11,289 nucleotides of DNA from Planctomycetaceae bacterium (GTDB lineage: Bacteria > Planctomycetota > Planctomycetia > Pirellulales > Pirellulaceae), in contig SKVE01000834.1 in the NCBI GenBank assembly GCA_007129635.1, positions 1 to 11,289 of the forward strand, in the 5' to 3' direction. The notes under the pieces are model-generated. The model saw nothing but the letters and a program-made list of their open reading frames with translations. It searched no databases and was not told the origin of the DNA. Position numbers and translations under genes: made by a program. Positions 1-11,289 of the stretch are shown in pieces (within the stretch, counting starts at the first letter, position 1; each line of letters starts with the position of its first letter).

Positions 1-775
1 CGATCATCATCCTTTCTTCGCCCGGGATGTGCCCGTGCTGATGCTGCATACGGGACTGCATGAGTTCTACCATCGTCCGATCGACCAAGCGCATCGGATC
101 AATCACCAAGGCAGCCAGCGAGTGGCGCGTCTGATGTTCGCGATCGCTTACCAGTTGGCCCATAGCGAGTCGGTTCCCGAATTCCGGTCTTTGTCGCGTT
201 CGGAACGACCCTCCGATCTGGTCGAATTGGAACGTCCGCTACCGGCGCGCACGCCACGGCTGGGGGTTTCGCTGGCGGCTGATCAGAATGACCCGGATCA
301 GATCGTATTGACTCGAGTGTTTGCCGGTCTGCCGGCCGACCACGCTGGATTACGCCCTGGGGATGTGCTGTTACGATTCGCGGACGCGGCGGTCGAGGAT
401 GTTCCGTCGCTGTTGATGCGTGTATTGAAGGTGGAATCGCCAACCTCGGTACAGATTCGCCGTCAGCGCGAGGATGACGTGGAAGAGATCGATCTGTCCG
501 TCACTCTAGACCATCGGCCTCTACGTTTGGGGGTCTCGTGGCGAGAGGATTGCGGCGAGTCTGGGACGCTGGTGTTGAGCGAGGTGATTCCTTATTCGCC
601 GGCCGAAGTGGCAGGTTTGCAGGTTGCCGATCGGATCTACGAGATCGGCGGCCGTACGTTCGCCGGAGGGGATGCTTTTCGGGATCTGGTGGCAACCTGG
701 ACCGGCCCGATGCCCTTGCTGGTCGAACGCCAGGGCCGCTTGCAAACGGTGACCGTCGAGCTGCCGTCGCGGTGA
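1..775 (+). CDS. M28-family metallopeptidase with two C-terminal PDZ domains (5' end outside window)
   Basis: The open frame runs in from the window edge (first full codon at 2), and 257 residues are visible. It begins with DHHPFF and continues to LMLHTGLHEFYHRPID. This matches the end of the M28 (aminopeptidase Y/S type) catalytic domain, where the usual S-D-H-x-x-F and T-G-x-H-x-x-Y-H-x-P-x-D segments occur; the His of FYHRP is the expected last zinc ligand. Two PDZ-like domains follow: about residues 86-169 (PRLGVSL, then GLRPGDVLL) and 175-255 (RLGVSW, then a GLQVADRIYEIGG segment). The family hydrolyses peptides with a di-zinc centre, and planctomycete members are usually exported; the signal peptide would lie outside the window. 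PDZ domains suggest substrate or partner binding. The gene converges on ribD with 55 nt between the stops and no T-tailed hairpin there. The family is fairly sure; the substrate is unknown. Confidence 0.85.
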   Translation, partial: DHHPFFARDVPVLMLHTGLHEFYHRPIDQAHRINHQGSQRVARLMFAIAYQLAHSESVPEFRSLSRSERPSDLVELERPLPARTPRLGVSLAADQNDPDQIVLTRVFAGLPADHAGLRPGDVLLRFADAAVEDVPSLLMRVLKVESPTSVQIRRQREDDVEEIDLSVTLDHRPLRLGVSWREDCGESGTLVLSEVIPYSPAEVAGLQVADRIYEIGGRTFAGGDAFRDLVATWTGPMPLLVERQGRLQTVTVELPSR

Positions 776-830
776 CGCTGATCGCCCACGGTTTGGGGAA
801 GGCAGCAGCGTTCAGGACCGACGTTCCTAT

Positions 831-1985
831 TCAGGACCGCCTCGGATCGGTGCCGTGCTGTCCATCGGCCAGCGGGTGCTGGTCGTGGGCCAAACGCCCG
901 CGGAAATAGACATCGCCGTCCAGGATTTCGATGGTCGGTTCAGACAGCGCGACCGCTTGTTGCATCTGTTGCCGCCCGCACCCAGCCACAGGCGACGGGG
1001 CGGTGCGGCCGCCGATCAGTTTCGCTGCGACGAACGCATGGACTTCGTCGATCGCTCGGGCATCGAACAGGCTGCCCAAGACCTGCGCACCGCCTTCGAC
1101 CAGCACATGGGTCATCCGAAGTCTTCCCAGTTCATCCAGCAGTTCCATCAGACGCTGATTGCGGTCTTCGGTCGCACCGATCCAGACTTCGCAGCCTGCC
1201 GCCCTAAGTTGCTGGCATCGCTGGCGCGGCGCCTCGGGCCCCGCGGCGATCAACACGGGCGTTTCGCGAGCCGTTTGGACCAAATGGGAATCGGTGGCCA
1301 ACGTGGCTCGGGAATCCAGGACGATCCGCACGGGGGTGCGTAGACCGGGTGGGCGAACCGTTAATTGGGGATCGTCGGCGCGGGCCGTCCCGGCGCCGAT
1401 CAGGATCGCATCCATGCGTCCGCGTAGTTGATGCACTCGCTGGCGTGAACGTTCGCCGGAAATCCAACGGCTGTCCCCGCTGCGAGCTGCCAATTTGCCA
1501 TCCAGGGTCATCGCCCACTTGGCGTTGATCCAGGGACGACCTTGCCGGACCAGTTTCAGATAAGGCGCATTCAATCGGCGGCTGGCCGATTCCATCAGCC
1601 CCACGTCGACCTGGACCCCTGCAGCTAGCAATTGGTCGATGCCTCCCCCATCGACGCGGGGGAAGGGATCGCGATGAGCCACGACGACGCGGCGGATCCC
1701 GGCTCGAACAATAGCCTCCGTGCAGGGCGGGGTCTTGCCGTGATGGCAGCAGGGCTCGAGCGTTACGTACATCGTTGCACCAGCGGCGGCCGAACCGGCT
1801 TGAGCCAAGGCCTCGATCTCCGCGTGGGAGCCGCCGAAGCGGGCATGCCAGCCTTGGCCCACCATCCGGTCGCCCGCGACAATCACGCAACCGACCATCG
1901 GATTGGGCTCGACCCCACCCAGACCGCGCACGGCCAGTTCCAGGGCAAGGGCCATGTGCGGCTGGTCGCGGGACGGTTCGATCAT
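831..1985 (-). CDS. ribD: RibD, bifunctional riboflavin-biosynthesis deaminase/reductase
   Basis: 384 aa, normal length for the fused enzyme. It catalyses two consecutive cytosolic steps of riboflavin synthesis: zinc-dependent deamination of diaminohydroxyphosphoribosylaminopyrimidine, then NADPH-dependent reduction of the ribosyl side chain. The N-terminal cytidine-deaminase-fold domain (about 8-145) has the conserved EPNPMVGCVIV segment, the zinc ligand His54 with catalytic Glu56 in HAE, and Cys79 and Cys88 in LEPCCHHGKTPPCTEA. The C-terminal RibD_C reductase domain (about 150-365) shows KWAMTLDGKLA, ILIGAGTARADDPQLTVR and the LVEGGA loop (295-300). The ATG lies only 3 nt beyond the stop of the upstream SEC-C/TPR gene, so translation is probably coupled; a weak GGACTGAG precedes it inside that gene. 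No other rib genes are in view. The last 15 or so residues are unconserved. A 10-nt direct repeat (TTCAGGACCG at 811-820 and 830-839) spans the stop codon. Confidence 0.96.
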   Translation of the reverse strand: MIEPSRDQPHMALALELAVRGLGGVEPNPMVGCVIVAGDRMVGQGWHARFGGSHAEIEALAQAGSAAAGATMYVTLEPCCHHGKTPPCTEAIVRAGIRRVVVAHRDPFPRVDGGGIDQLLAAGVQVDVGLMESASRRLNAPYLKLVRQGRPWINAKWAMTLDGKLAARSGDSRWISGERSRQRVHQLRGRMDAILIGAGTARADDPQLTVRPPGLRTPVRIVLDSRATLATDSHLVQTARETPVLIAAGPEAPRQRCQQLRAAGCEVWIGATEDRNQRLMELLDELGRLRMTHVLVEGGAQVLGSLFDARAIDEVHAFVAAKLIGGRTAPSPVAGCGRQQMQQAVALSEPTIEILDGDVYFRGRLAHDQHPLADGQHGTDPRRS

Positions 1986-1988
1986 GAC

Positions 1989-4145
1989 TCAGTCCATGCC
2001 GGGGATCCAGAGCTTCGGTTTTTCACCGCCACCCGACGGCGCCTGCGGGCCGTCCGGAGTCCAGACCCCGGGCGACGCGGCAGCGGCCTGGGACGGTTGG
2101 GAACTCGGCTGCGAAGGTGCACCCGCTCCCGGTTGTCGAGGCTGGCCGTCCGGCGAGATGATGCCCAAACGAACCAGCAGCGAGTACAGCGCCTGGGCGA
2201 CTCCGGGGTCCCGCACATATTTCGTTTGCAGTTCCGTCAGCAATTCGTTGGCCCGCTGCGAATCGCCCATCATCAGACGGACTTCCAGCTCTCGCAACAG
2301 CCAGGGTGCCAGCGGCTGGCCCGAAGCCAAAACGTCGTCGCTGGCGATGCGGATGAACTCCAAGATTTCTTCCACCGAATTCGATAGCCGCGACATCATG
2401 TCCAAAATCTTGGGGCGCTCAGCTCGGCTGACCAAGTGGGGTCGAGCCAACAGTTCGTGGCCCAGCCGCATTCCGGCGGTGGACAGGCGGTAGGCGATGG
2501 CGATCTCGAACAGTTCCAGCAGTTGCTCGTCTGTCAGGTCGTCTACTTTCACCAGGTGCAATTGCATCGGGGAAAACTGCCTCGACGGATGTTCCGCCAA
2601 AGAAAACTCGTGCCGCAGCGGCAAATTCAGTTTCGTTCGCAGTTCGTTGTAGTCGAAACCAGTCCGCCCTCGTTCCGCAGAATCTTCCAATAACAGGATG
2701 GCCGCCAATAACGGGATTCGATAGTTGTCGTCGCCGGCGACGTCGATCGGACGTTTGCCGCTCAGGCAGGCCAGCGGTGTCTCGGGCCAAACGTTCAAGT
2801 TGATCTCGCGTCGCTTCTCCTCGACCAGCTCTTCTCGCTTCACTCGCGGAGTGTCGTCCGGCAAACGCCATCGCCAAGTCATTGCAGCCGCCTGGGCCGG
2901 GACCTGCCCGACCGGTTCCTCTTGGATCAGTTCGCCACAATGCTGCTCGACAAACTGCGTCAGCACTTCCAGTTTGCGCTGGTAATCCGCCGACTTGACC
3001 GTGACAAATTCCAGCCGCGCGTCGCGATCCGTCTCGCGACCGTACAAATACATTTCGCCCAAAACGTTCGGAACCTCGTGCAACTGCAGTTCCTTGCCAC
3101 TGGGTGGCTCGGCGCGATCCAGCAACAAAAAAGTACCTTTCGGCGGAGGACTGCCTTCCTCCGACGGCTTGGCCTGTTCGGCAGGCATCGGCATCACTTG
3201 TTTTTCCGATAGCAGACGCTCCATCATCCGCTGACTGTCATCCACGGGATAGACGTGCAGCACCTCGTCGACCATCTGCTGGTCGTCATCGGACATCAAC
3301 TGGGCCATCGCCTCGATCTCCACCGCATGCTCCAGGTCCAACGAGGAATGGCTGGCCAGACGCCGCCAGGTCGTTGCGGCCTCGGGTAACCGGTTAAGCC
3401 AACCCTGGTAGCGGGCCAGATTTTGCAGGATCGCCGGCTGGTCGGGATACTGTTGATCCAAATCCTTCAGCATCGCCACGGCCTTACGCCAACGACCACG
3501 AGCCGCCAGGTTCTCGCATTCCTCCAATGCGTTCGCCCAGGGCGCCCCCGCCGGACGATCAAGCGGCGCAGGGCTGTATTTCAACAGACAGGGCACTCCA
3601 GGCGATCCGAAGATCGCTTTCAGCGTGTCGAACGCGGAATCGTCCTCCTCCGGACCAACTGCCGCCTGGAGGGTCAGGTAGCCCACCGCCGGGACGACAT
3701 GCCCATGGTTCAACAACAAACGCGACATGATGGTGATCGCCGCGTAGGTCGTGTCGTTCAGCGGAGCATCCCCGAGAAACTCAAGTGCGTCCTGCATCCG
3801 ATCCAGTGCTTCATCCACGTTATGTTCACCGGCGGACCGAATCGCAGCGAGCGACAACGCGATGGGGTTCTCCGGATACAGCTCGTTGAAAGTGCCCGTG
3901 ATCTTATCCAGTTCCTCTATGTTGCCCATCTGCATCTGCAGGTTGCTTTTGATGGCCAGCAGGCAGGGCCGAGGGCCATGGGAGTCCAACAGACGGTTGA
4001 CAAGCCCAGCGCACGAGGCAAGCTGACCCCCAGTAATGGCTGCTATCACCTGGTTCAGGTCGCCCAGCATGTCCTTAGCACACTGGCAGAACTTGATTTT
4101 CTTGTTGGTCCCTCCGGGACAGAATGTGTAGACATCAATGGTCAT
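1989..4145 (-). CDS. Degenerate SEC-C zinc-motif / TPR-like protein of unknown function
   Basis: 718 aa from the ATG at 4145; an in-frame GTG at 4154 would add three residues, and no clear Shine-Dalgarno decides between them. Right at the N-terminus is FCPGGTNKKIKFCQC. It resembles the SEC-C metal-binding motif (CPCGSGKKYKKCC), but the second Cys is Gly and the CC pair is CQC, leaving Cys9, Cys20 and Cys22. The rest is mostly helical. Around residues 205-265 a segment with GRWRKAVAMLKDL and NRLPEAATTW is TPR-like, and the middle is rich in acidic and amphipathic helices. The last 45 or so residues are a Pro/Gln/Ser/Ala-rich linker ending in a WTPD motif and a final LWIPGMD. There is no signal peptide or membrane segment, so it is probably cytosolic. 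It is the first gene of a two-gene unit with ribD. I recognise the layout as planctomycete-like but know no function; a protein-interaction scaffold is a guess. Confidence 0.8.
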   Translation of the reverse strand: MTIDVYTFCPGGTNKKIKFCQCAKDMLGDLNQVIAAITGGQLASCAGLVNRLLDSHGPRPCLLAIKSNLQMQMGNIEELDKITGTFNELYPENPIALSLAAIRSAGEHNVDEALDRMQDALEFLGDAPLNDTTYAAITIMSRLLLNHGHVVPAVGYLTLQAAVGPEEDDSAFDTLKAIFGSPGVPCLLKYSPAPLDRPAGAPWANALEECENLAARGRWRKAVAMLKDLDQQYPDQPAILQNLARYQGWLNRLPEAATTWRRLASHSSLDLEHAVEIEAMAQLMSDDDQQMVDEVLHVYPVDDSQRMMERLLSEKQVMPMPAEQAKPSEEGSPPPKGTFLLLDRAEPPSGKELQLHEVPNVLGEMYLYGRETDRDARLEFVTVKSADYQRKLEVLTQFVEQHCGELIQEEPVGQVPAQAAAMTWRWRLPDDTPRVKREELVEEKRREINLNVWPETPLACLSGKRPIDVAGDDNYRIPLLAAILLLEDSAERGRTGFDYNELRTKLNLPLRHEFSLAEHPSRQFSPMQLHLVKVDDLTDEQLLELFEIAIAYRLSTAGMRLGHELLARPHLVSRAERPKILDMMSRLSNSVEEILEFIRIASDDVLASGQPLAPWLLRELEVRLMMGDSQRANELLTELQTKYVRDPGVAQALYSLLVRLGIISPDGQPRQPGAGAPSQPSSQPSQAAAASPGVWTPDGPQAPSGGGEKPKLWIPGMD

Positions 4146-4264
4146 GGGTAGCACTTTCGTTGGCCGTTTCGGTATGTTGAAGCCTGGAATCTAACAAATA
4201 CCTCGGAGTTTGACGAGCGGTAGCGCGGCACGTGCCACGGTCGGGGATGCTCGAAGGCGATAGG
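4146..4264. promoter_or_regulatory. Divergent intergenic region with GGCACGTGCC palindrome
   Basis: This 119-bp spacer separates the divergent SEC-C/TPR gene (-) and methyltransferase gene (+), so it must hold both start signals if both are transcribed from here. I see no convincing -35/-10 pair on either strand. It contains a perfect 10-bp palindrome, GGCACGTGCC (4227-4236), ending 28 nt before the methyltransferase ATG, which is a plausible place for an operator. GAAGG at 4253-4257 is the likely ribosome binding site for the ATG at 4265 (7-nt spacer). Regulatory function is inferred from position only. Confidence 0.4.
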
Positions 4265-5950
4265 ATGGATCAACGCAAGGCTGAAGGACGGTTCTACACA
4301 CCCGATCCCGTGGTGCGTTTCATCGTGCGTGAAACCCTGGACCGATTCAGGGCGGATGGTCTGGCGATCGGCGACCTGCGAATTCTCGAGCCGGCCTGTG
4401 GCGAAGGGGTCTTTCTGCTGGAATCTCTCCGTCATCTGTGCTCGTCCGGATGGGCAGGTGGCGATTCTTTTTCGCCTGGCCGGATCCTGCAGCGTGTCTT
4501 GTACGGGGTCGATCGGGACCGTGCGGCTGTCCAGCGGGCGCGGCTGGCCCTGGCGGCTTGGGTCGAGCCCGATCTGCATCAGCGAGAGCAACTGGAGAGC
4601 CGGTTGGCCGGGAAAATCCGTTGCGGCGATGCGTTGATCAGCAACGATGCGAAGAGGGGAAGGGGGCAGACGGACTGGCGGCGGATGTTCCCCGAGGTCT
4701 TCGACGGCGGGAGGGGCGGATTCGATGCGGTGATCGGGAATCCTCCCTACGTGAACATCCGGCGGCTCTCCCAACACCACGGCGATCCGGTCAAACGTGT
4801 GTTGACTCGCCATTTTCAGTGCGCGTCGGGTGCCTACGATCTGTACGTGCTGTTTTTCGAGCTGGCGTTGCGTCTGCTCCGCCCCGGCGGTCTGTGCGGG
4901 ATGATCGTCCCCAATAAACTAGCCACTTTGAACTATGCAGCGAAATGTCGTGCCATGCTGGCCAGGGAGACCACGCTGTTGACCATTGCCGATTTGTCCG
5001 GGTGTCGAGTCTTTCCTGACGCCAGCGTCTACCCGTACATCGTGATCTGGCAGAAGCAGCCGCCGCCGCCCGACCATCGCATCCGCATCATCCAGACCGA
5101 TCGGATCGACCATCTGGACCGATTAAGCCCGGTGCATTACGTGGCCCAGCACCACCTGCCAGCGGTTGGCGGCTGGCACCTGCACGGCGTCCTGGATGTC
5201 GAAAGCCGCGTCGCGACCAGGCCTCTGGCTCAAGTATCGGAGATCCACAGCGGTACGACAGGATTTCAAGCAGCTCGCGTGGCGGCCATGCTGCGTGAAC
5301 GGTCGGCGGATTCCGAGCAGACAGGATTCGATTTTGTTGTGACCGGCAACGTCGACCGTTTTCGGGTGCAAAGGGTGCAGGTGCGGTTCATGCATCGGCG
5401 ATTCGAACGTCCGTACCTGCCCGACGATCCGAGCGAATTGACGCCGCGAAAACGGCAGTTGTATCGCCGGTCAAAGATTCTGGTCGCGGGCATGTCACGT
5501 CGGCTGGAGGCGGCCTGGGACCCCGGCGGCCTGGCTTTGGGCGTGTCGCTGTACGCCGTGGTGCCTCGGATGGATCCCTATTATCTGCTGGCGATTCTAA
5601 ATTCCAAGCTGATGTCGTATCTATTTCGTCTGCGGTTTCAGGCCAAGCGGCTGCAGGGCGGTTATCTGGCGATCAACAAGGGCCAATTGGGCTGCCTGCC
5701 GATCTGCATCGCCGATGACGACCACTCTGCCGAACTCAAAACGCAATTGGCCGAATCGGCTCGCGAATTGATCCATTGGGGCAACGCTGCCAGCGAGGAA
5801 GACCCCGATCCGGTCGGCCAGCAGCATATCGAAGACGTCGACCGGAAGATCGACCAACGGGTGTACCGGCTGTACGGCCTGACCGTCGAGGAACAGGAGA
5901 TCGTCGAATCCCAGACGATCGGAATCACGGGGTTCGGTCCGAAAGCATGA
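4265..5950 (+). CDS. Solitary Eco57I/TaqI-type adenine-N6 DNA methyltransferase
   Basis: 561 aa from the ATG at 4265, chosen because GAAGG lies 7 nt upstream and because related enzymes start with a short R-K-x-x-G-x-(F/Y)-Y-T-P segment, here RKAEGRFYTP. In-frame GTG 4232 and ATG 4247 are longer options. Motifs in order: motif I ILEPACGEGVF (residues 40-50) for SAM binding; an acidic GVDRD (about 81-85); CGDAL (about 120-124); and the catalytic motif IV, NPPY (159-162), typical of adenine-N6 amino-methyltransferases. RPGGLCGMIVPNK follows. From about 324 to 484 there is a TaqI-like C-terminal target-recognition domain (LLAILNSKLMSYLF, then GGYLAINKGQL), and the tail has the family's RVYRLYGLTVEEQEIVE. 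Its role is sequence-specific DNA methylation. No nuclease domain is fused (type IIG enzymes are usually near 1000 aa), and no nuclease gene is adjacent, so it may be an orphan. It is much smaller than BREX PglX. The target sequence cannot be read from the protein. Confidence 0.88.
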   Translation: MDQRKAEGRFYTPDPVVRFIVRETLDRFRADGLAIGDLRILEPACGEGVFLLESLRHLCSSGWAGGDSFSPGRILQRVLYGVDRDRAAVQRARLALAAWVEPDLHQREQLESRLAGKIRCGDALISNDAKRGRGQTDWRRMFPEVFDGGRGGFDAVIGNPPYVNIRRLSQHHGDPVKRVLTRHFQCASGAYDLYVLFFELALRLLRPGGLCGMIVPNKLATLNYAAKCRAMLARETTLLTIADLSGCRVFPDASVYPYIVIWQKQPPPPDHRIRIIQTDRIDHLDRLSPVHYVAQHHLPAVGGWHLHGVLDVESRVATRPLAQVSEIHSGTTGFQAARVAAMLRERSADSEQTGFDFVVTGNVDRFRVQRVQVRFMHRRFERPYLPDDPSELTPRKRQLYRRSKILVAGMSRRLEAAWDPGGLALGVSLYAVVPRMDPYYLLAILNSKLMSYLFRLRFQAKRLQGGYLAINKGQLGCLPICIADDDHSAELKTQLAESARELIHWGNAASEEDPDPVGQQHIEDVDRKIDQRVYRLYGLTVEEQEIVESQTIGITGFGPKA

Positions 5951-6009
5951 GCCGAACACGCGAGCGTTGGGCGATTTGTCCACCGGTGCTGCCTGACAGA
6001 CCCCTGGGC

Positions 6010-6037
6010 TTTACAGGCATGGGCAAATCGTTATGAT
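6010..6037 (+). promoter_or_regulatory. Candidate sigma70-type promoter for greA
   Basis: TTTACA (6010-6015) and TATGAT (6032-6037) are separated by 16 nt. Each hexamer differs from consensus at one position. Transcription would begin near 6044, giving a leader of about 126 nt before greA. It lies 60 nt after the methyltransferase stop, in the only non-coding stretch upstream of greA. The match is seen directly; activity is inferred. Confidence 0.6.
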
Positions 6038-6043
6038 AAGCAC

Positions 6044-6130
6044 GGACGTTCGCAACGACCACGGACGCGAATCAGCACTTACCCGAATCAGCGATCAACC
6101 CGGCTTCCCTTTGCGGAAGCCGGTTTTTTT
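6044..6130 (+). ncRNA. Candidate short greA leader RNA ending at an intrinsic terminator
   Basis: If transcription starts just after the TATGAT box, the terminator at 6100-6130 would release an RNA of about 87 nt and only read-through would reach greA. E. coli greA has the same order (promoter, leader terminator, greA), and its terminated products are the GraL RNAs. There is no sequence similarity to claim, only the same architecture. The leader also has two short direct repeats: CACGGACG at 6041-6048 and 6060-6067, and CGAATCAGC at 6068-6076 and 6084-6092. The 5' end is a guess. Confidence 0.35.
6100..6130 (+). terminator. Intrinsic terminator upstream of greA
   Basis: A perfect 9-bp GC-rich stem (CCGGCTTCC at 6100-6108 paired with GGAAGCCGG at 6115-6123) encloses a 6-nt loop and is followed directly by seven T residues (6124-6130). 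This is a textbook Rho-independent terminator on the + strand. It ends only 39 nt before the greA start codon, so it can end transcripts from the methyltransferase gene and also attenuate any transcript begun at the 6010-6037 promoter. Confidence 0.9.
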
Positions 6131-6156
6131 CTCGTTCCTGCGAGAAGGGAAATGAC

Positions 6157-6162
6157 AGGAGG
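6157..6162 (+). promoter_or_regulatory. greA ribosome binding site
   Basis: A full AGGAGG lies 7 nt before the ATG at 6170. It fixes the greA start and is by far the strongest Shine-Dalgarno in the window, as expected for a well-expressed gene. Confidence 0.85.
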
Positions 6163-6169
6163 ATAACCA

Positions 6170-6652
6170 ATGTCCAGCTACGTACCGATGACGCGCGATG
6201 CCTACAATCGGATCAAGGCAGAAGTGGATCGAATGGAACAGGATGAGATGCCTCAGATCGCCGATAAGATCGCGGTGGCCAGGGCCGAGGGCGATCTGCG
6301 GGAGAACGCCGAGTATCACGCTCAGCGCGAGGCGATGGGGTTATTGCAGGCGAAGGTGAATAAGCTAAAAAGCGATCTGGCAAACGCCTCGATTGTCGAC
6401 CCGGATAAGGTCCCCAGAGATCAGGTTGCTCTGGGCGCGACCGTGTTGGTCCGCGACCTGGATTACCAGGATGAAGAGGAGTTCACGTTGGTCGGCGCCG
6501 GCGACGAAGATTACGATTCGGGCAAGTACTTGATCACCAGCCCGGTCGGGCAGGGCCTGCTGGGCAAGCGAGTCGGCGAACGGGTCGAGATCGAAGTTCC
6601 CAAAGGCACACTGAAGTTCGAGATCCTGGAAATCCGCTACGATAGCTTATGA
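6170..6652 (+). CDS. greA: GreA transcription elongation factor
   Basis: 160 aa, the normal length. GreA enters the secondary channel of RNA polymerase and stimulates cleavage of the 3' end of backtracked RNA, rescuing stalled complexes. The N-terminal coiled coil (about 8-75) carries the tip motif [18 protein letters not shown]; Asp42 and Glu45 correspond to the catalytic acidic pair of E. coli GreA. The C-terminal FKBP-like domain (about 85-158) ends in the usual [18 protein letters not shown] segment and [12 protein letters not shown]. The start is set by AGGAGG 7 nt upstream. It appears to have its own promoter and leader terminator, and the next gene starts 12 nt after its stop, so the two are probably co-transcribed. 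Identification is secure; GreB is less likely because the acidic tip context and length fit GreA. Confidence 0.96.
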
Positions 6653-6664
6653 GGACGGTGAGCC

Positions 6665-9600
6665 ATGGTGTCCTTGCCTCGATCCCTGCTCGCCGCGAGC
6701 GGGATGCTTGCCTGCTGGCTGCTGGCTGCGTCCCCTTCGCCAGGCTTCGATCCACCCGTCGATACGTCAGGCGCATTGCGAGTGCGGATCGACGGACCCG
6801 AGTCGATCGACCGAACGGACAAGCCTTTCCCCGTCCGCGTGGTGCTGGAGAATCTGGGTGACCAGACCGTGCAAGGCCAGGTCCAATTGCGTGTGATCGA
6901 CCGCTGGACCTGTGAGCCGGCCGATGCGGTCGCCTTTTCGGTGGACGGTGGGCGATCGCAAGTGGTCCCGTTCCAGGTGACGGCTGGACAAGGCACCTAC
7001 GCGGCCCTTTATCCGATCCATGCACTCGCCCGCTTCGCCGGACCCGATGGAAAACGATTGGCCCATCCGATCTTGATCGTCGACGCTCAGGTTCCCGAGC
7101 CGGCCGTCGAGCGTTCTCCCCTGCCTTGGCAGCCGATCGCATGGCAATCGGATCGCCGGTTGGCCGTCTGGCAATTGGCCGTCTACCGCGCGGGGATCCA
7201 GGTCTTCGGCCAAGCGCCGCAGATGATGCCCACCGGTTGGACTGGCAGCGACCACGACACTCGGACGTCGATCACGGTCGGCTCGCGGCAGACGCTGGAC
7301 AATCAGGCTCGCACGATCGTTGGCATCCACCCGCCCTGGGCCGACGGCCACGTGGGGACCGCTTGGATCGAGTACCCGCTGGCCATGCCCCAAGCCTCTC
7401 GGATCGATCTGCGTTTTGCCCACGCCGTCACGCCGGCGGGCGAGGGCGACGGCGTGACCTTCCGCGTGCGAGTGGTGCCGATCGAGGCTCCTGATGGCCA
7501 GTTGGGCGAGGTGGTTTTCGAACGACATTCGAACGCGAAGACCTGGACCGTAGGCCAAGCGGACTTGAGCCGTTTCGCCGGGCAGAGCGTCCGATTGCAA
7601 CTGGAATCGCATCCGGGACCGAAGAAGAACACGGCCTTCGATCAATCGTATTGGGCCGAACCGGTATTGACGGCGGGCGATCCTCCTGCTTCACGGCCCT
7701 TTCCGCCGCAAGATCAGGCGGATGCCCTGTCGTTGGGCAGCTTGCGGGTCGGCGATACCGATTATCAGGTAAGTATCTGGCCCGGTCTCCGCGGGCTGCT
7801 GGATGCCGATGTGCAACTGGACGGCGGCGATCGCCAGTTGGTCTTTCGCGGTTTTCCCGTCCAGGTGATGGGCCAGCGACTGGACGATGCCCAGGCGCCC
7901 TGGACGCTAGAGGACGTGGTGTGGGAGGACACAGAAAACGGCCGTCGCATGCGGCACCGTTTCTCCGGCGCCGGTGGTTCGTTCGATCTGGTCGTCCACC
8001 TGCGATGCGCAGCCGAGGGCCTGCAAGCGGAATTCCGCTTGGAAAATACTCCGCCCCGACGACCCTGGTTCGCGCCGCGGATCGAATCGTTGAGCATCGG
8101 ACCATTCAACCAATCGGTATCGAGAGTCTATGCCGGGCATGGCAATGTCATCCAACGTCCCGAGGCGTTCCGGTTGAACTTCGACGGTCATCGGCTGGCC
8201 AGCTCGCATGTGGGGTTTGATTTCGAGAACGGCATGTCGCTGGTCCAGGCCGTCGATCTGCCACCCGAAGCGTTGGTGGTCGATCCCGATCAGCGGCAAT
8301 ACTCGCTGACAACCACCGGCGAAGCGACGTGGACCCTGATCCCGGCCGCCGACGTCTGGGACGCGGCGCGGCACTACCGCGAGACGTGCGGTTGGCAGGC
8401 ATCCGCCGGGGTGTCGCGGCTGGCAGGCCGTTTCGTTTTCGATCTGTGGGGTGGCCGTTATGGCCAGTCGAACGAAGCCCTGCAACGCGCCTTCCAGTAC
8501 GGGCTGACCGATTCGGTCGTGATCTGGCACAACTGGCAGCGCTGGGGATACGACTATCGTTTGCCGGAGATCTACCCGCCCAATCCGCGACTGGGCACCG
8601 AAGCCGAATTGGTCGCGATGATCGAGAGCTGTCGCGAGGCGGACGTTCTGTTTGCCCTGCACGATAACTACATCGACCTGTACCCCGATGCCGACGGTTT
8701 TTCCTACCAGCAGAATATCGCGTTTTCCGCCCAGGGCCGCCCGGTTCGCGCCTGGTTCAATCGAGGCCGTCTGGCTCAATCGTATCGCTACCGACCGGAT
8801 CGTGTCGCGCCCCTGCTGAAACCCAATCTGCGGACCATCGATCGGCAGTTGAGCCCCACGTCCTACTTCATCGATGTCTGGTCCAGCATCCGGCCGCACG
8901 ATTATTGGACCGCCGAGGGCCGGTTTGGCGACGCTCGCGAAACACGCGAAATATGGGGCCAGCATTTCGCCTGGATCCGCGAACTGCTGGGCGATCAGGC
9001 ACCGCAGATCTCGGAAAGCGGCCATGATCAATTGATCGGCTGGTTGGACGGAGCCACGGCCAATCATCTGCGAGTCGGCCAGCCGGTGCCGGGACAGGAG
9101 TACACGTGGAGCGTGTGGGATATCCGTTGCGAAGACGCGCAGCGGATCGCCTGGCTCGATTTCGCTCACCATCATCGGTTCATCCTTCACGGCGCCGGAT
9201 ACTCGCTCCGCTACCAAGCCGGATGGGACGCCCGGCTGCACGGCATCGACAGCGACGACTATATCACCACCGAAGTACTGACGGGTCGACCGGGGATGGT
9301 CAGCCAGCCCTTCGGCCGCGATGTCGTGCGAAAGTATTGGCTGACCCAGGATCTGATGCGGGCGTTGGCCCTCAGGAAGATCGAGCGGATAACGTTCGTC
9401 GACGGCGACCTGCACCGGCAGCAGATCTGCTGGTCCGGTGGCGGCCAAGTATGGGTCAACCGAGGCTCGACCGATTGGTCGGTGGAAGGTCACGTCCTGC
9501 CCCCCTTCGGATTTTTGGCTCGAGTCGCGACCGACGAGGGGATCGTCCGAGCGTCCATCCACCGCCACGGCGATCAGATCGTCGAGACGGCCACCGCGCC

Positions 9601-10366
9601 GGGCCACGTCTATTTTCATGGCAGACAAATGGCTGGCGGAGAAACAAGGATACGCCCCAAGGTCGAAGCGGTCGCCTGGACCGATCCGGGCAGGATCGAG
9701 TGGCACATCGATTGGCACGCCGAAGACCCTATCCCCGACGGCTACGTGCCCTTCCTGCATCTGGTCGATGCTCGCGGCGAGATCGCCTTCCAGGCCAGCT
9801 ACGACCGATCGATCCTGACCACGCAGCGTAGCGGAACGATTCGCATGCGAGCCACAGCAAACGTGCCGGAAGGCAGCCAGCCCGGGGATCCATGGGAACT
9901 GCGAGTCGGCCTGTATCATCCCTCGGGAGGCGTTCCTCGACTAGAGATCCAGGGGTTAGCCGACGACGACCGCCGCGTCCGGTTGGGCACGGTGCGACTG
10001 ACCGGCCAGCAACAGCGACCCGACGGTATCGACTGGATTCCCACCGTGAGCGTGCCGGATGCGTTCGACGATCGCAACAACCCGCAGTCGCTGCCCGTCG
10101 ATTTCGGACCGGTAGTCACCGCTGGCGGCTGTCGTCTGGTCCGTGACGAGGATGCCGTTTGGCTGATCCCGTTGCCGCTGAGCGGCCATGTGGAAACCGA
10201 ATTCACCGTCCGCTGGGATCGATTGCCGTGGAAGCTGCCTGCGCCCACCCGCATCGAAGCGATCGGCCATGACGATCAAGTCCTGTTTACCCGCAAAGTT
10301 GACGGTCCGTTGCGGGTGCGAGCCAAGCCGGAGGTCTTCGCTTACCGTTTCCTGATCGGCCCGTGA
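6665..10366 (+). CDS. Large secreted glycoside-hydrolase-like protein (possible GH101/GH129/DUF5696-type barrel)
   Basis: 1233 aa. GAGG at 6651-6654, overlapping the greA stop, lies 10 nt before the ATG. Residues 1-27 look like a Sec signal peptide (Arg6, hydrophobic LLAASGMLACWLLAAS). Regions in order: about 35-140 a beta-sandwich-like domain (PFPVRVVLENLGDQTVQG); about 195-337 a jelly-roll-like, possibly carbohydrate-binding domain; about 350-560 a beta-rich supersandwich-like region; about 585-860 a barrel-like region with DLWGGRYG, VIWHNWQRWGYDY, FALHDNYIDLYPDADG, YFIDVWSS and QISESGHDQLIGW; then beta-rich C-terminal domains. By analogy with GH101-type enzymes, Asp737 (FIDVW) could be the nucleophile and Glu784 (ISESG) the acid/base; this is inference, and the family match is distant. 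A role in degrading complex polysaccharide or glycoprotein glycans outside the cytoplasm fits planctomycetes. A long antisense frame overlaps it but is a shadow. It is certainly a real gene; the function is tentative. Confidence 0.85.
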   Translation: MVSLPRSLLAASGMLACWLLAASPSPGFDPPVDTSGALRVRIDGPESIDRTDKPFPVRVVLENLGDQTVQGQVQLRVIDRWTCEPADAVAFSVDGGRSQVVPFQVTAGQGTYAALYPIHALARFAGPDGKRLAHPILIVDAQVPEPAVERSPLPWQPIAWQSDRRLAVWQLAVYRAGIQVFGQAPQMMPTGWTGSDHDTRTSITVGSRQTLDNQARTIVGIHPPWADGHVGTAWIEYPLAMPQASRIDLRFAHAVTPAGEGDGVTFRVRVVPIEAPDGQLGEVVFERHSNAKTWTVGQADLSRFAGQSVRLQLESHPGPKKNTAFDQSYWAEPVLTAGDPPASRPFPPQDQADALSLGSLRVGDTDYQVSIWPGLRGLLDADVQLDGGDRQLVFRGFPVQVMGQRLDDAQAPWTLEDVVWEDTENGRRMRHRFSGAGGSFDLVVHLRCAAEGLQAEFRLENTPPRRPWFAPRIESLSIGPFNQSVSRVYAGHGNVIQRPEAFRLNFDGHRLASSHVGFDFENGMSLVQAVDLPPEALVVDPDQRQYSLTTTGEATWTLIPAADVWDAARHYRETCGWQASAGVSRLAGRFVFDLWGGRYGQSNEALQRAFQYGLTDSVVIWHNWQRWGYDYRLPEIYPPNPRLGTEAELVAMIESCREADVLFALHDNYIDLYPDADGFSYQQNIAFSAQGRPVRAWFNRGRLAQSYRYRPDRVAPLLKPNLRTIDRQLSPTSYFIDVWSSIRPHDYWTAEGRFGDARETREIWGQHFAWIRELLGDQAPQISESGHDQLIGWLDGATANHLRVGQPVPGQEYTWSVWDIRCEDAQRIAWLDFAHHHRFILHGAGYSLRYQAGWDARLHGIDSDDYITTEVLTGRPGMVSQPFGRDVVRKYWLTQDLMRALALRKIERITFVDGDLHRQQICWSGGGQVWVNRGSTDWSVEGHVLPPFGFLARVATDEGIVRASIHRHGDQIVETATAPGHVYFHGRQMAGGETRIRPKVEAVAWTDPGRIEWHIDWHAEDPIPDGYVPFLHLVDARGEIAFQASYDRSILTTQRSGTIRMRATANVPEGSQPGDPWELRVGLYHPSGGVPRLEIQGLADDDRRVRLGTVRLTGQQQRPDGIDWIPTVSVPDAFDDRNNPQSLPVDFGPVVTAGGCRLVRDEDAVWLIPLPLSGHVETEFTVRWDRLPWKLPAPTRIEAIGHDDQVLFTRKVDGPLRVRAKPEVFAYRFLIGP

Positions 10367-10376
10367 TCGTTAGCGC

Positions 10377-10389
10377 CAGCGGACCGCTG
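10377..10389. repeat. Short perfect inverted repeat after the glycosidase-like gene
   Basis: CAGCGG and CCGCTG flank a single A. It lies 10 nt after the stop of the large secreted-protein gene. The hairpin is short and has no following T-run on either strand, so it is not a convincing terminator. It could be a small REP-like palindrome or chance in GC-rich DNA. Confidence 0.3.
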
Positions 10390-10425
10390 ACCGTGACGCA
10401 GGCCCTGAAGACCGGACGATGAGCC

Positions 10426-10454
10426 TTGACAAAATACCGTAATCCCACCAGAAT
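10426..10454 (+). promoter_or_regulatory. Candidate promoter for the FmdB-like gene start
   Basis: A perfect TTGACA (10426-10431) is followed after 17 nt by CAGAAT (10449-10454), which matches four of six consensus positions. The predicted start near 10461 would leave a leader of about 40 nt before the GTG at 10502. Its position in front of a recognisable gene start supports it; activity is inferred. Confidence 0.45.
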
Positions 10455-11289
10455 CAGGCGCGCTGCGGTTGTCTGTTCTTTTGCCTTCGGGAAACGCTAC
10501 TGTGCCCATTTACGAATTCTACTGTTCGCACTGCCACATGGTCTTCAACTTCTTCGCGCGCCGCCTGTTTAGACAAACCCGCAAAGTCTTTTGCCGCGAC
10601 CGCTTTTGCACGTTTGCCGGGCAAAAGCGCTGCGACAGAACGCTCAAGAAAAGCACCGCGCTGTTCCCTGCTTGCAATACTCTTGCCGTCTACCAACACT
10701 TTGCCGTCGCTGGTAACAGCAATCTCATCATGCGGAAGCAGGCTGTTCATTCCCAACTGAGTGAAGCTAGGTAGTTCGGCCAACATGGGCTCACACTCCG
10801 CTTCAAAGCGGTTAACACCCAGCAGTTGGGCACACAAAGCCTGCCCTGCTTCGTAACGCAGGGCGTCAGACACAATAACTACGAGCTTTCGATCGGCGCG
10901 CAACACCGGCACAAACACCGAGTTGAAGAAGTTCCGCTGTTGCTTTACACCCGGCAAGACCGCTGCCGGCGGTATGGTAACGAGCCGCTCCCACACCTCT
11001 GCGAGCCGTTGTTGAAACTGATGTACGTATCTGTCATTGAGTTTTCGCATCAACTCGCTAAGAAACCCCGGTGAGTCGGCCTCGCGGTAGAGTCGCACCG
11101 CCTCGCGGTAACGCAGGTCGAGGACGTACAGCGATTGTGTATAGGCCTCCCATAACTCTATTGCGGTTGTATGGTTCCATCGGAGCCCCGCGAGTTCGGA
11201 CTCAAAGGCGAGGACGTGCTCAAGTAGCTGGTATACCGCCTGCAGCTGGCCACGCTCTACCGCTACCCAGTAAGACTCACGCCGGGACC
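10454..11289 (-). CDS. pglZ: PglZ (BREX/Pgl defence) fragment, cut at both ends
   Basis: The frame enters from the window edge (first full codon at 11287-11285) and gives 277 residues. It matches the start of the PglZ catalytic domain of BREX phage-defence systems, an alkaline-phosphatase-superfamily fold. FFNSVFVPVL is followed by KLVVIVSDALRYEAG with metal-binding Asp at about residue 141, then FEAECEPMLAELPSFTQLGMNSLLPH with the likely active-site Thr at about 176. Homology ends at REEVEDH (about residue 250, near 10538). The expected continuation (DxVYxYHNxID and the later DHGF metal site) is absent, and the last 27 or so residues to the stop at 10454 are antisense of the FmdB-like gene start and are not PglZ-like. 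The fragment cannot make a working enzyme. GC is near 54% and it has one GATC in about 750 nt, unlike its neighbours, which points to a different source. A GTG at 11098 is not the real start. Confidence 0.8.
   Translation of the reverse strand, partial: SRRESYWVAVERGQLQAVYQLLEHVLAFESELAGLRWNHTTAIELWEAYTQSLYVLDLRYREAVRLYREADSPGFLSELMRKLNDRYVHQFQQRLAEVWERLVTIPPAAVLPGVKQQRNFFNSVFVPVLRADRKLVVIVSDALRYEAGQALCAQLLGVNRFEAECEPMLAELPSFTQLGMNSLLPHDEIAVTSDGKVLVDGKSIASREQRGAFLERSVAALLPGKRAKAVAAKDFAGLSKQAAREEVEDHVAVRTVEFVNGHSSVSRRQKNRQPQRA
10502..10564 (+). pseudogene. N-terminal fragment of an FmdB-type zinc-ribbon protein
   Basis: From the GTG at 10502 the frame reads (M)PIYEFYCSHCHMVFNFFARR. This is the typical beginning of small FmdB-family zinc-ribbon proteins (MPIYEFxCxxC, then FNFxSRR), with the first CxxC at Cys8 and Cys11. 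The second CxxC and the rest of the protein are missing: after residue 21 or so the frame only runs through the antisense strand of the pglZ fragment. A promoter-like TTGACA/CAGAAT pair lies upstream at a suitable distance; the ribosome binding site is weak (GGGAA near 10489). The gene therefore begins as a proper planctomycete gene and is cut at the joint. The open frame continues to 10774, but I do not regard that part as a real protein. Confidence 0.6.
10538..10564. other. Inverted joint with about 27-nt overlap between FmdB-like and pglZ sequence
   Basis: The plus strand encodes the conserved CHMVFNFFARR part of the FmdB-like start. The minus strand of the same bases encodes the conserved AREEVEDH part of PglZ. 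Left of it only the FmdB-like reading makes sense; right of it only PglZ does. The breakpoint must lie in or beside this shared stretch, in the manner of a microhomology joint or a k-mer-driven misassembly. Confidence 0.6.

Follow-up and report, generated by a model that had tools for sequence, protein, structure and literature searches.

A foreign pglZ fragment joined to the start of a planctomycete fmdB gene through a short shared sequence at a contig end, almost certainly an artefact of the data

The window analysed here, the whole stretch of DNA under study, is one complete contig (C475; 11,289 bases) from a planctomycete bin (G000) that comprises 1022 contigs, with a completeness of 63.6% and a contamination of 2.3%. 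The left 10.5 kb of the contig carries, among other genes, those encoding an Eco57I-like methylase, GreA and a DUF5696 protein, and ends in the first codons of an fmdB-like gene read on the plus strand. The remainder, up to the right end of the contig, is occupied by part of a pglZ gene read on the minus strand. The methylase belongs to the Eco57I class, has a TaqI-like C-terminal domain and is encoded at 4232-5950 on the plus strand, within the segment that is collinear with the same-genus genome G002. For the DUF5696 protein (1233 aa; 6665-10366, plus strand), 399 proteins were found at E ≤ 1e-100, and the named organisms among the 120 relatives listed were planctomycetes (e.g. Pirellulales, Isosphaeraceae). 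A weak NPCBM_assoc match below the cut-off suggests that this protein is perhaps carbohydrate-active.

Positions 1-10563 of the window were collinear, on the plus strand, with positions 10040-20582 of a contig (C277) of G002 at about 95% identity, the blastn alignment being obtained in pieces of 95-96% identity. Only 31 bases (7050-7080) remained unaligned to G002, reflecting a difference in the length of the DUF5696 gene that keeps the reading frame. The match stopped at 10563, which is 21 codons into the fmdB-like gene (10502-10564, plus strand). This gene starts with the GTG at 10502 and is cut by the joint. The DNA at 10480-10563 was 96% identical to G002, with no similarity detected past 10563. 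In G002 the fmdB gene is intact, comprises 168 codons and begins at the same GTG.

At the protein level, the Zn_ribbon_8 profile was matched over residues 1-31 of the fmdB product and the TIGR02605 profile over residues 1-19, in both cases below the curated cut-off. The first 19 residues therefore match the start of the profile of the FmdB-family zinc ribbon proteins (TIGR02605), but the gene in the window is cut after about 21 codons whereas its homologue in the same genus is of full length. Other Zn_ribbon_8 matches in the bin were located on contigs C739 and C78.

When positions 10480-11289 were used to search 60 genomes (own genome included), four genomes besides the own one gave a match, and all four matches covered the fmdB start only. 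The fmdB DNA matches in G001, G010 and G023 ended at 10560-10564. A first-pass annotation made from the sequence alone had described an FmdB start that breaks off at about 10564, and these end points agree with it. With the same query, and considering at most the best 8 candidates per genome, the tail beyond the joint had no match in the 59 other genomes, and no relative among the 60 genomes showed the fused arrangement. A search for homologues of the fused plus-strand reading gave one candidate with one match covering 24% of the query; the test is a weak one, since hardly any candidates had words in common with the query.

The pglZ fragment (10545-11287, minus strand) is an open reading frame that remains open at the contig end. 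It matched the PglZ family PF08665 (E = 2e-24) over profile positions 2-115 of 179, and the BREX-1 PglZ type A family TIGR02687 (E = 5.2e-44) over positions 323-571 of 844, the latter alignment covering residues 2-251 of the reading frame and ending at residue 251, that is, at window position 10535. The TIGR02687 score of 150 bits did not reach the cut-off of 270, as expected given that the reading frame is a fragment. Compared with BREX-1 PglZ type A proteins the pglZ of the window is thus cut at both ends and below the curated cut-off, and only an internal fragment is present, within a tail of 726 bases at the end of the contig. The first-pass annotation had put the end of the PglZ reading near 10538; the profile match ended at 10535 and the similarity to the nearest relative at 10545.

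This nearest relative was the only one found in a scan of named genomes with six exact peptide patterns, a procedure that reveals close relatives only. It is located on contig PXEI01000245.1 of the Spirochaetaceae MAG T3Sed10_372 (G060) and was 72% identical in amino acid sequence over residues 105-248, while the preceding part of pglZ lies on another contig of this MAG (75% identity over residues 1-102). The gene after pglZ on PXEI01000245.1 resembles brxL by eye. The pglZ of this MAG is split between the end of one contig (C128) and the start of another (C397), the two parts being nearly adjacent in the protein, which indicated that pglZ had been broken during assembly there as well. In a protein database, 16 proteins at E ≤ 1e-10 were 30-45% identical to the fragment; this search took only proteins of 0.55-1.75 times the query length, and full-length PglZ proteins could therefore not appear in it. 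No pglZ relatives were found among viral contigs, and the fragment had no match in the same-genus genomes G001-G003. Within the own genome, a search with the PglZ family and a search with the 3.8-kb pglZ-containing contig of T3Sed10_372 as DNA both matched this tail alone, and with these two queries a complete pglZ with neighbouring BREX genes was not encountered in the bin (64% complete). Searched separately, as had been proposed, the two flanks thus differed in affinity, the left one being planctomycete and the tail having its nearest relative in the Spirochaetaceae. The true donor was not found among the named genomes, viral contigs and protein database searched, the nearest relative being 72-75% identical in amino acid sequence.

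The similarity to the Spirochaetaceae pglZ reached 10545 and the planctomycete similarity ended at 10563, so that by the nearest relatives 19 nt (10545-10563) are common to fmdB on the plus strand and pglZ on the minus strand. The first-pass annotation had put the shared sequence at about 27 nt, conserved in both directions. The overlap itself is real, but 27 nt (10538-10564) is only its upper limit, which would apply if residues D249-H250 were part of pglZ as well. Inspection by eye showed D-H at this position in one distant PglZ (P0005) but not in the nearest relative. The antisense strand of the intact fmdB of G002 also reads REEVEDHVAV, and the antisense of fmdB alone therefore explains the apparent PglZ extension EDHV, which makes 27 nt the upper limit. 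Given that the donor was not found, the overlap length stays a range of 19 to 27 nt.

The number of words expected to be shared by chance was calculated for a pair of genomes with the sizes of G001 (9.3 Mb) and G060 (2.9 Mb), assuming uniform base composition, and was about 196 for 19-mers, 12 for 21-mers and 0.003 for 27-mers. The longest word actually shared by the sequences compared (99,913 against 13,945 bases) was 15 nt. A community of 1 Gb would hold far more chance coincidences than a single pair of genomes. From these expectations, it is unremarkable that some pair of loci in a community should share about 20 nt by chance, and an overlap of 27 nt, if this were the true length, would need the many genome pairs of a community. 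Judged by this estimate, the overlap (19, at most 27 nt) has a length that is expected by chance or near an assembler k. The sequence around the joint was also examined for repeats. Apart from short matches present in two copies, it held only a single inverted repeat of 12 nt, located at 10601-10629 within pglZ, and none of these explains the joint.

The composition of the DNA also changed at the joint, as had been noticed for GC content and GATC density. The GC content of the 726-base tail (10564-11289) was 0.563 compared with 0.620 on average in 28 pieces taken from the left part, and the GATC density was 1.38 per kb (one GATC in 726 bases) compared with 13.25 per kb in the left part. As a control, 221 half-overlapping pieces of equal length were taken from 17 other contigs of the bin (20 contigs, of which three that read as N were dropped). 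The 4-mer log-likelihood ratio of spirochaete over own genome was 0.19 for the tail, compared with a maximum of 0.09 in the own-genome pieces (0/221 reached the score of the tail). Only 1/221 pieces lay as far from the genome mean, 1/221 had as few GATC and 16/221 had as low a GC content. Among the 28 pieces of the left part of the window none reached the 4-mer score, the distance or the low GC content of the tail, whereas of 35 pieces of the spirochaete MAG 5 reached its score, 15 its distance and 22 its low GC content. The spirochaete sample includes the related pglZ; with the latter left out, the tail scored 0.17 compared with a maximum of 0.10 (0/205 pieces from 16 contigs, without the contig C829 described below). 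The comparison of tetranucleotide profiles suggested for the two flanks thus showed the composition of the tail to be foreign.

In positions 1-10563 and in other contigs of the bin, GATC occurred at 11.2 per kb compared with 3.5 per kb predicted by base composition, an approximately 3-fold enrichment, and it was likewise enriched in stretches of G001 and G002. The idea that GATC is a special iterated palindrome of the genus was rejected, since the 3-fold excess over the mononucleotide expectation was 1.03-fold over the trinucleotide-based expectation. GATC is a marker of composition only.

The sequence expected downstream of the break was found on a separate contig of the same bin (C829), which resumes 523 bases past the break and follows G002 for 3.3 kb at 95% identity. 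Neither these 523 bases nor the remainder of fmdB could be located in the bin (best 40 of 62 candidates) and C829 does not extend to the joint, and an intact fmdB of G000 was therefore not seen. The collinearity of C829 with G002 is confined to bases 1202-4543 of C829, with divergence to either side, which means that the fmdB/pglZ joint is not the only place where collinearity with G002 is lost. The 4-mer scores of the flanking pieces of C829 were -0.02 and -0.16, compared with 0.195 for the pglZ tail in the same computation. Unlike the pglZ tail, these flanks are of the genome's own type in composition and carry repeats native to the genus, and the outer parts of C829 matched same-genus genomes at many places in scattered pieces. 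The breaks around 1202 and 4543 are either misjoins at native repeats or real differences. This comparison indicated that the bin departs from G002 elsewhere at native repeats and that only the fmdB/pglZ joint brings in foreign sequence.

A dispersed repeat of about 128 nt is located at positions 536-663 of C829. A query of 1300 bases containing this repeat gave at least 46, 56 and 26 matches in G001, G002 and G003, respectively (best 40 of 470, 448 and 62 candidates). Most of the matches listed fell on the element of about 128 nt, and several of them were located at contig ends. Rfam gave no match on C829 up to E = 1, and the RNA fold of the repeat was no more stable than that of shuffled sequences (z = -1.2). 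The repeat may explain the fragmentation of these genomes.

The first-pass annotation had named a microhomology-mediated rearrangement and a short-overlap assembly chimera side by side as causes of the joint. A joint of this kind is supported by our results, and the relatives of the two flanks, the 4-mer comparison and the search for the arrangement elsewhere favour the chimera. Collinearity with close relatives was lost abruptly, the flanks differed in both taxonomic affinity and composition, the bin gave no other match to the PglZ family or to the pglZ-containing contig of the relative, and part of the sequence expected downstream, from 523 bases past the break, was present on a separate contig. 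It is thus very probable that the contig end is a chimera produced in assembly or in the library through a chance overlap, and the joint is almost certainly an artefact of the data and not new biology. Reads from fmdB of the planctomycete and reads from pglZ of an unrelated, probably spirochaete-like, member of the community would have shared about 19-27 bases on opposite strands. A graph step with small k in a de Bruijn assembler, or a template switch, could have joined the two, and the contig would then have ended within pglZ. We infer that the joint was made outside the cell and in the assembly step, library preparation being the less likely origin. Some observations weigh against the chimera: neither the donor nor the intact fmdB of G000 was found, collinearity with G002 is also lost on both sides within C829, 16/221 own-genome pieces match the low GC content of the tail, the longest word shared by the sequences compared was only 15 nt, and an overlap of 27 nt would be rare for a single genome pair.

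In several respects the joint is the same as in inter-genome de Bruijn chimeric contigs, in that it involves unrelated genomes, a shared word of about 20 bases, a contig end and a fragmented bin. As set out in a review, chimeric contigs arise when graphs become connected through shared k-mers (PMC7299287); the description there mainly concerns related species, whereas the flanks here come from distant groups. In a soda-lake sediment study that names the sample T3Sed10, assembly was done with MEGAHIT at a minimum k of 21 (PMC6146748), and G000 may stem from this or from another assembly.

A real insertion or rearrangement mediated by microhomology, in which a horizontally acquired BREX segment entered fmdB and broke it after about 21 codons, is improbable. 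A true joint with short homology would look alike, and BREX genes are often horizontally acquired, which counts in its favour, as does the fact that C829 does not span the joint and that G000 departs from G002 at both ends of the collinear part of C829 as well. Against it, pglZ is represented only by an internal fragment, in a tail of just 726 bases where a contig of a fragmented bin ends. Nothing else in the bin matched the PglZ family or the contig of the relative, and G002 has an intact fmdB with an undisturbed downstream neighbourhood. Given that the bin is 64% complete, the absence of the remaining BREX sequence is weak on its own. We accordingly give little credence to a strain-specific illegitimate recombination that used about 20 nt of antisense coding homology and put a spirochaete-like BREX segment into the planctomycete fmdB. 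That fmdB and pglZ form a natural convergent pair truly overlapping in antisense is extremely improbable, since, although both frames read as conserved across the overlap, neither gene is complete (fmdB loses its homology after 21 codons, and pglZ breaks off within the PglZ domain, of which positions 2-115 of 179 are matched) and the arrangement was shown by none of the relatives searched.

With the chimera as the preferred explanation, pglZ is foreign sequence glued on through about 20 shared bases and should not be credited to this genome, as the first reading of the sequence had cautioned; its affinity, its composition and the lack of any other PglZ match in the bin all agree with this. The contig illustrates cleanly how a chimera can be recognised from sequence alone. 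Were the joint left in place, a BREX gene would be attributed to a genome that yielded no further trace of pglZ, and the truncation of fmdB would be recorded as a trait of the species. The bases after 10563 should therefore be trimmed or flagged, and on this evidence neither the BREX gene nor the broken fmdB should be ascribed to the organism.
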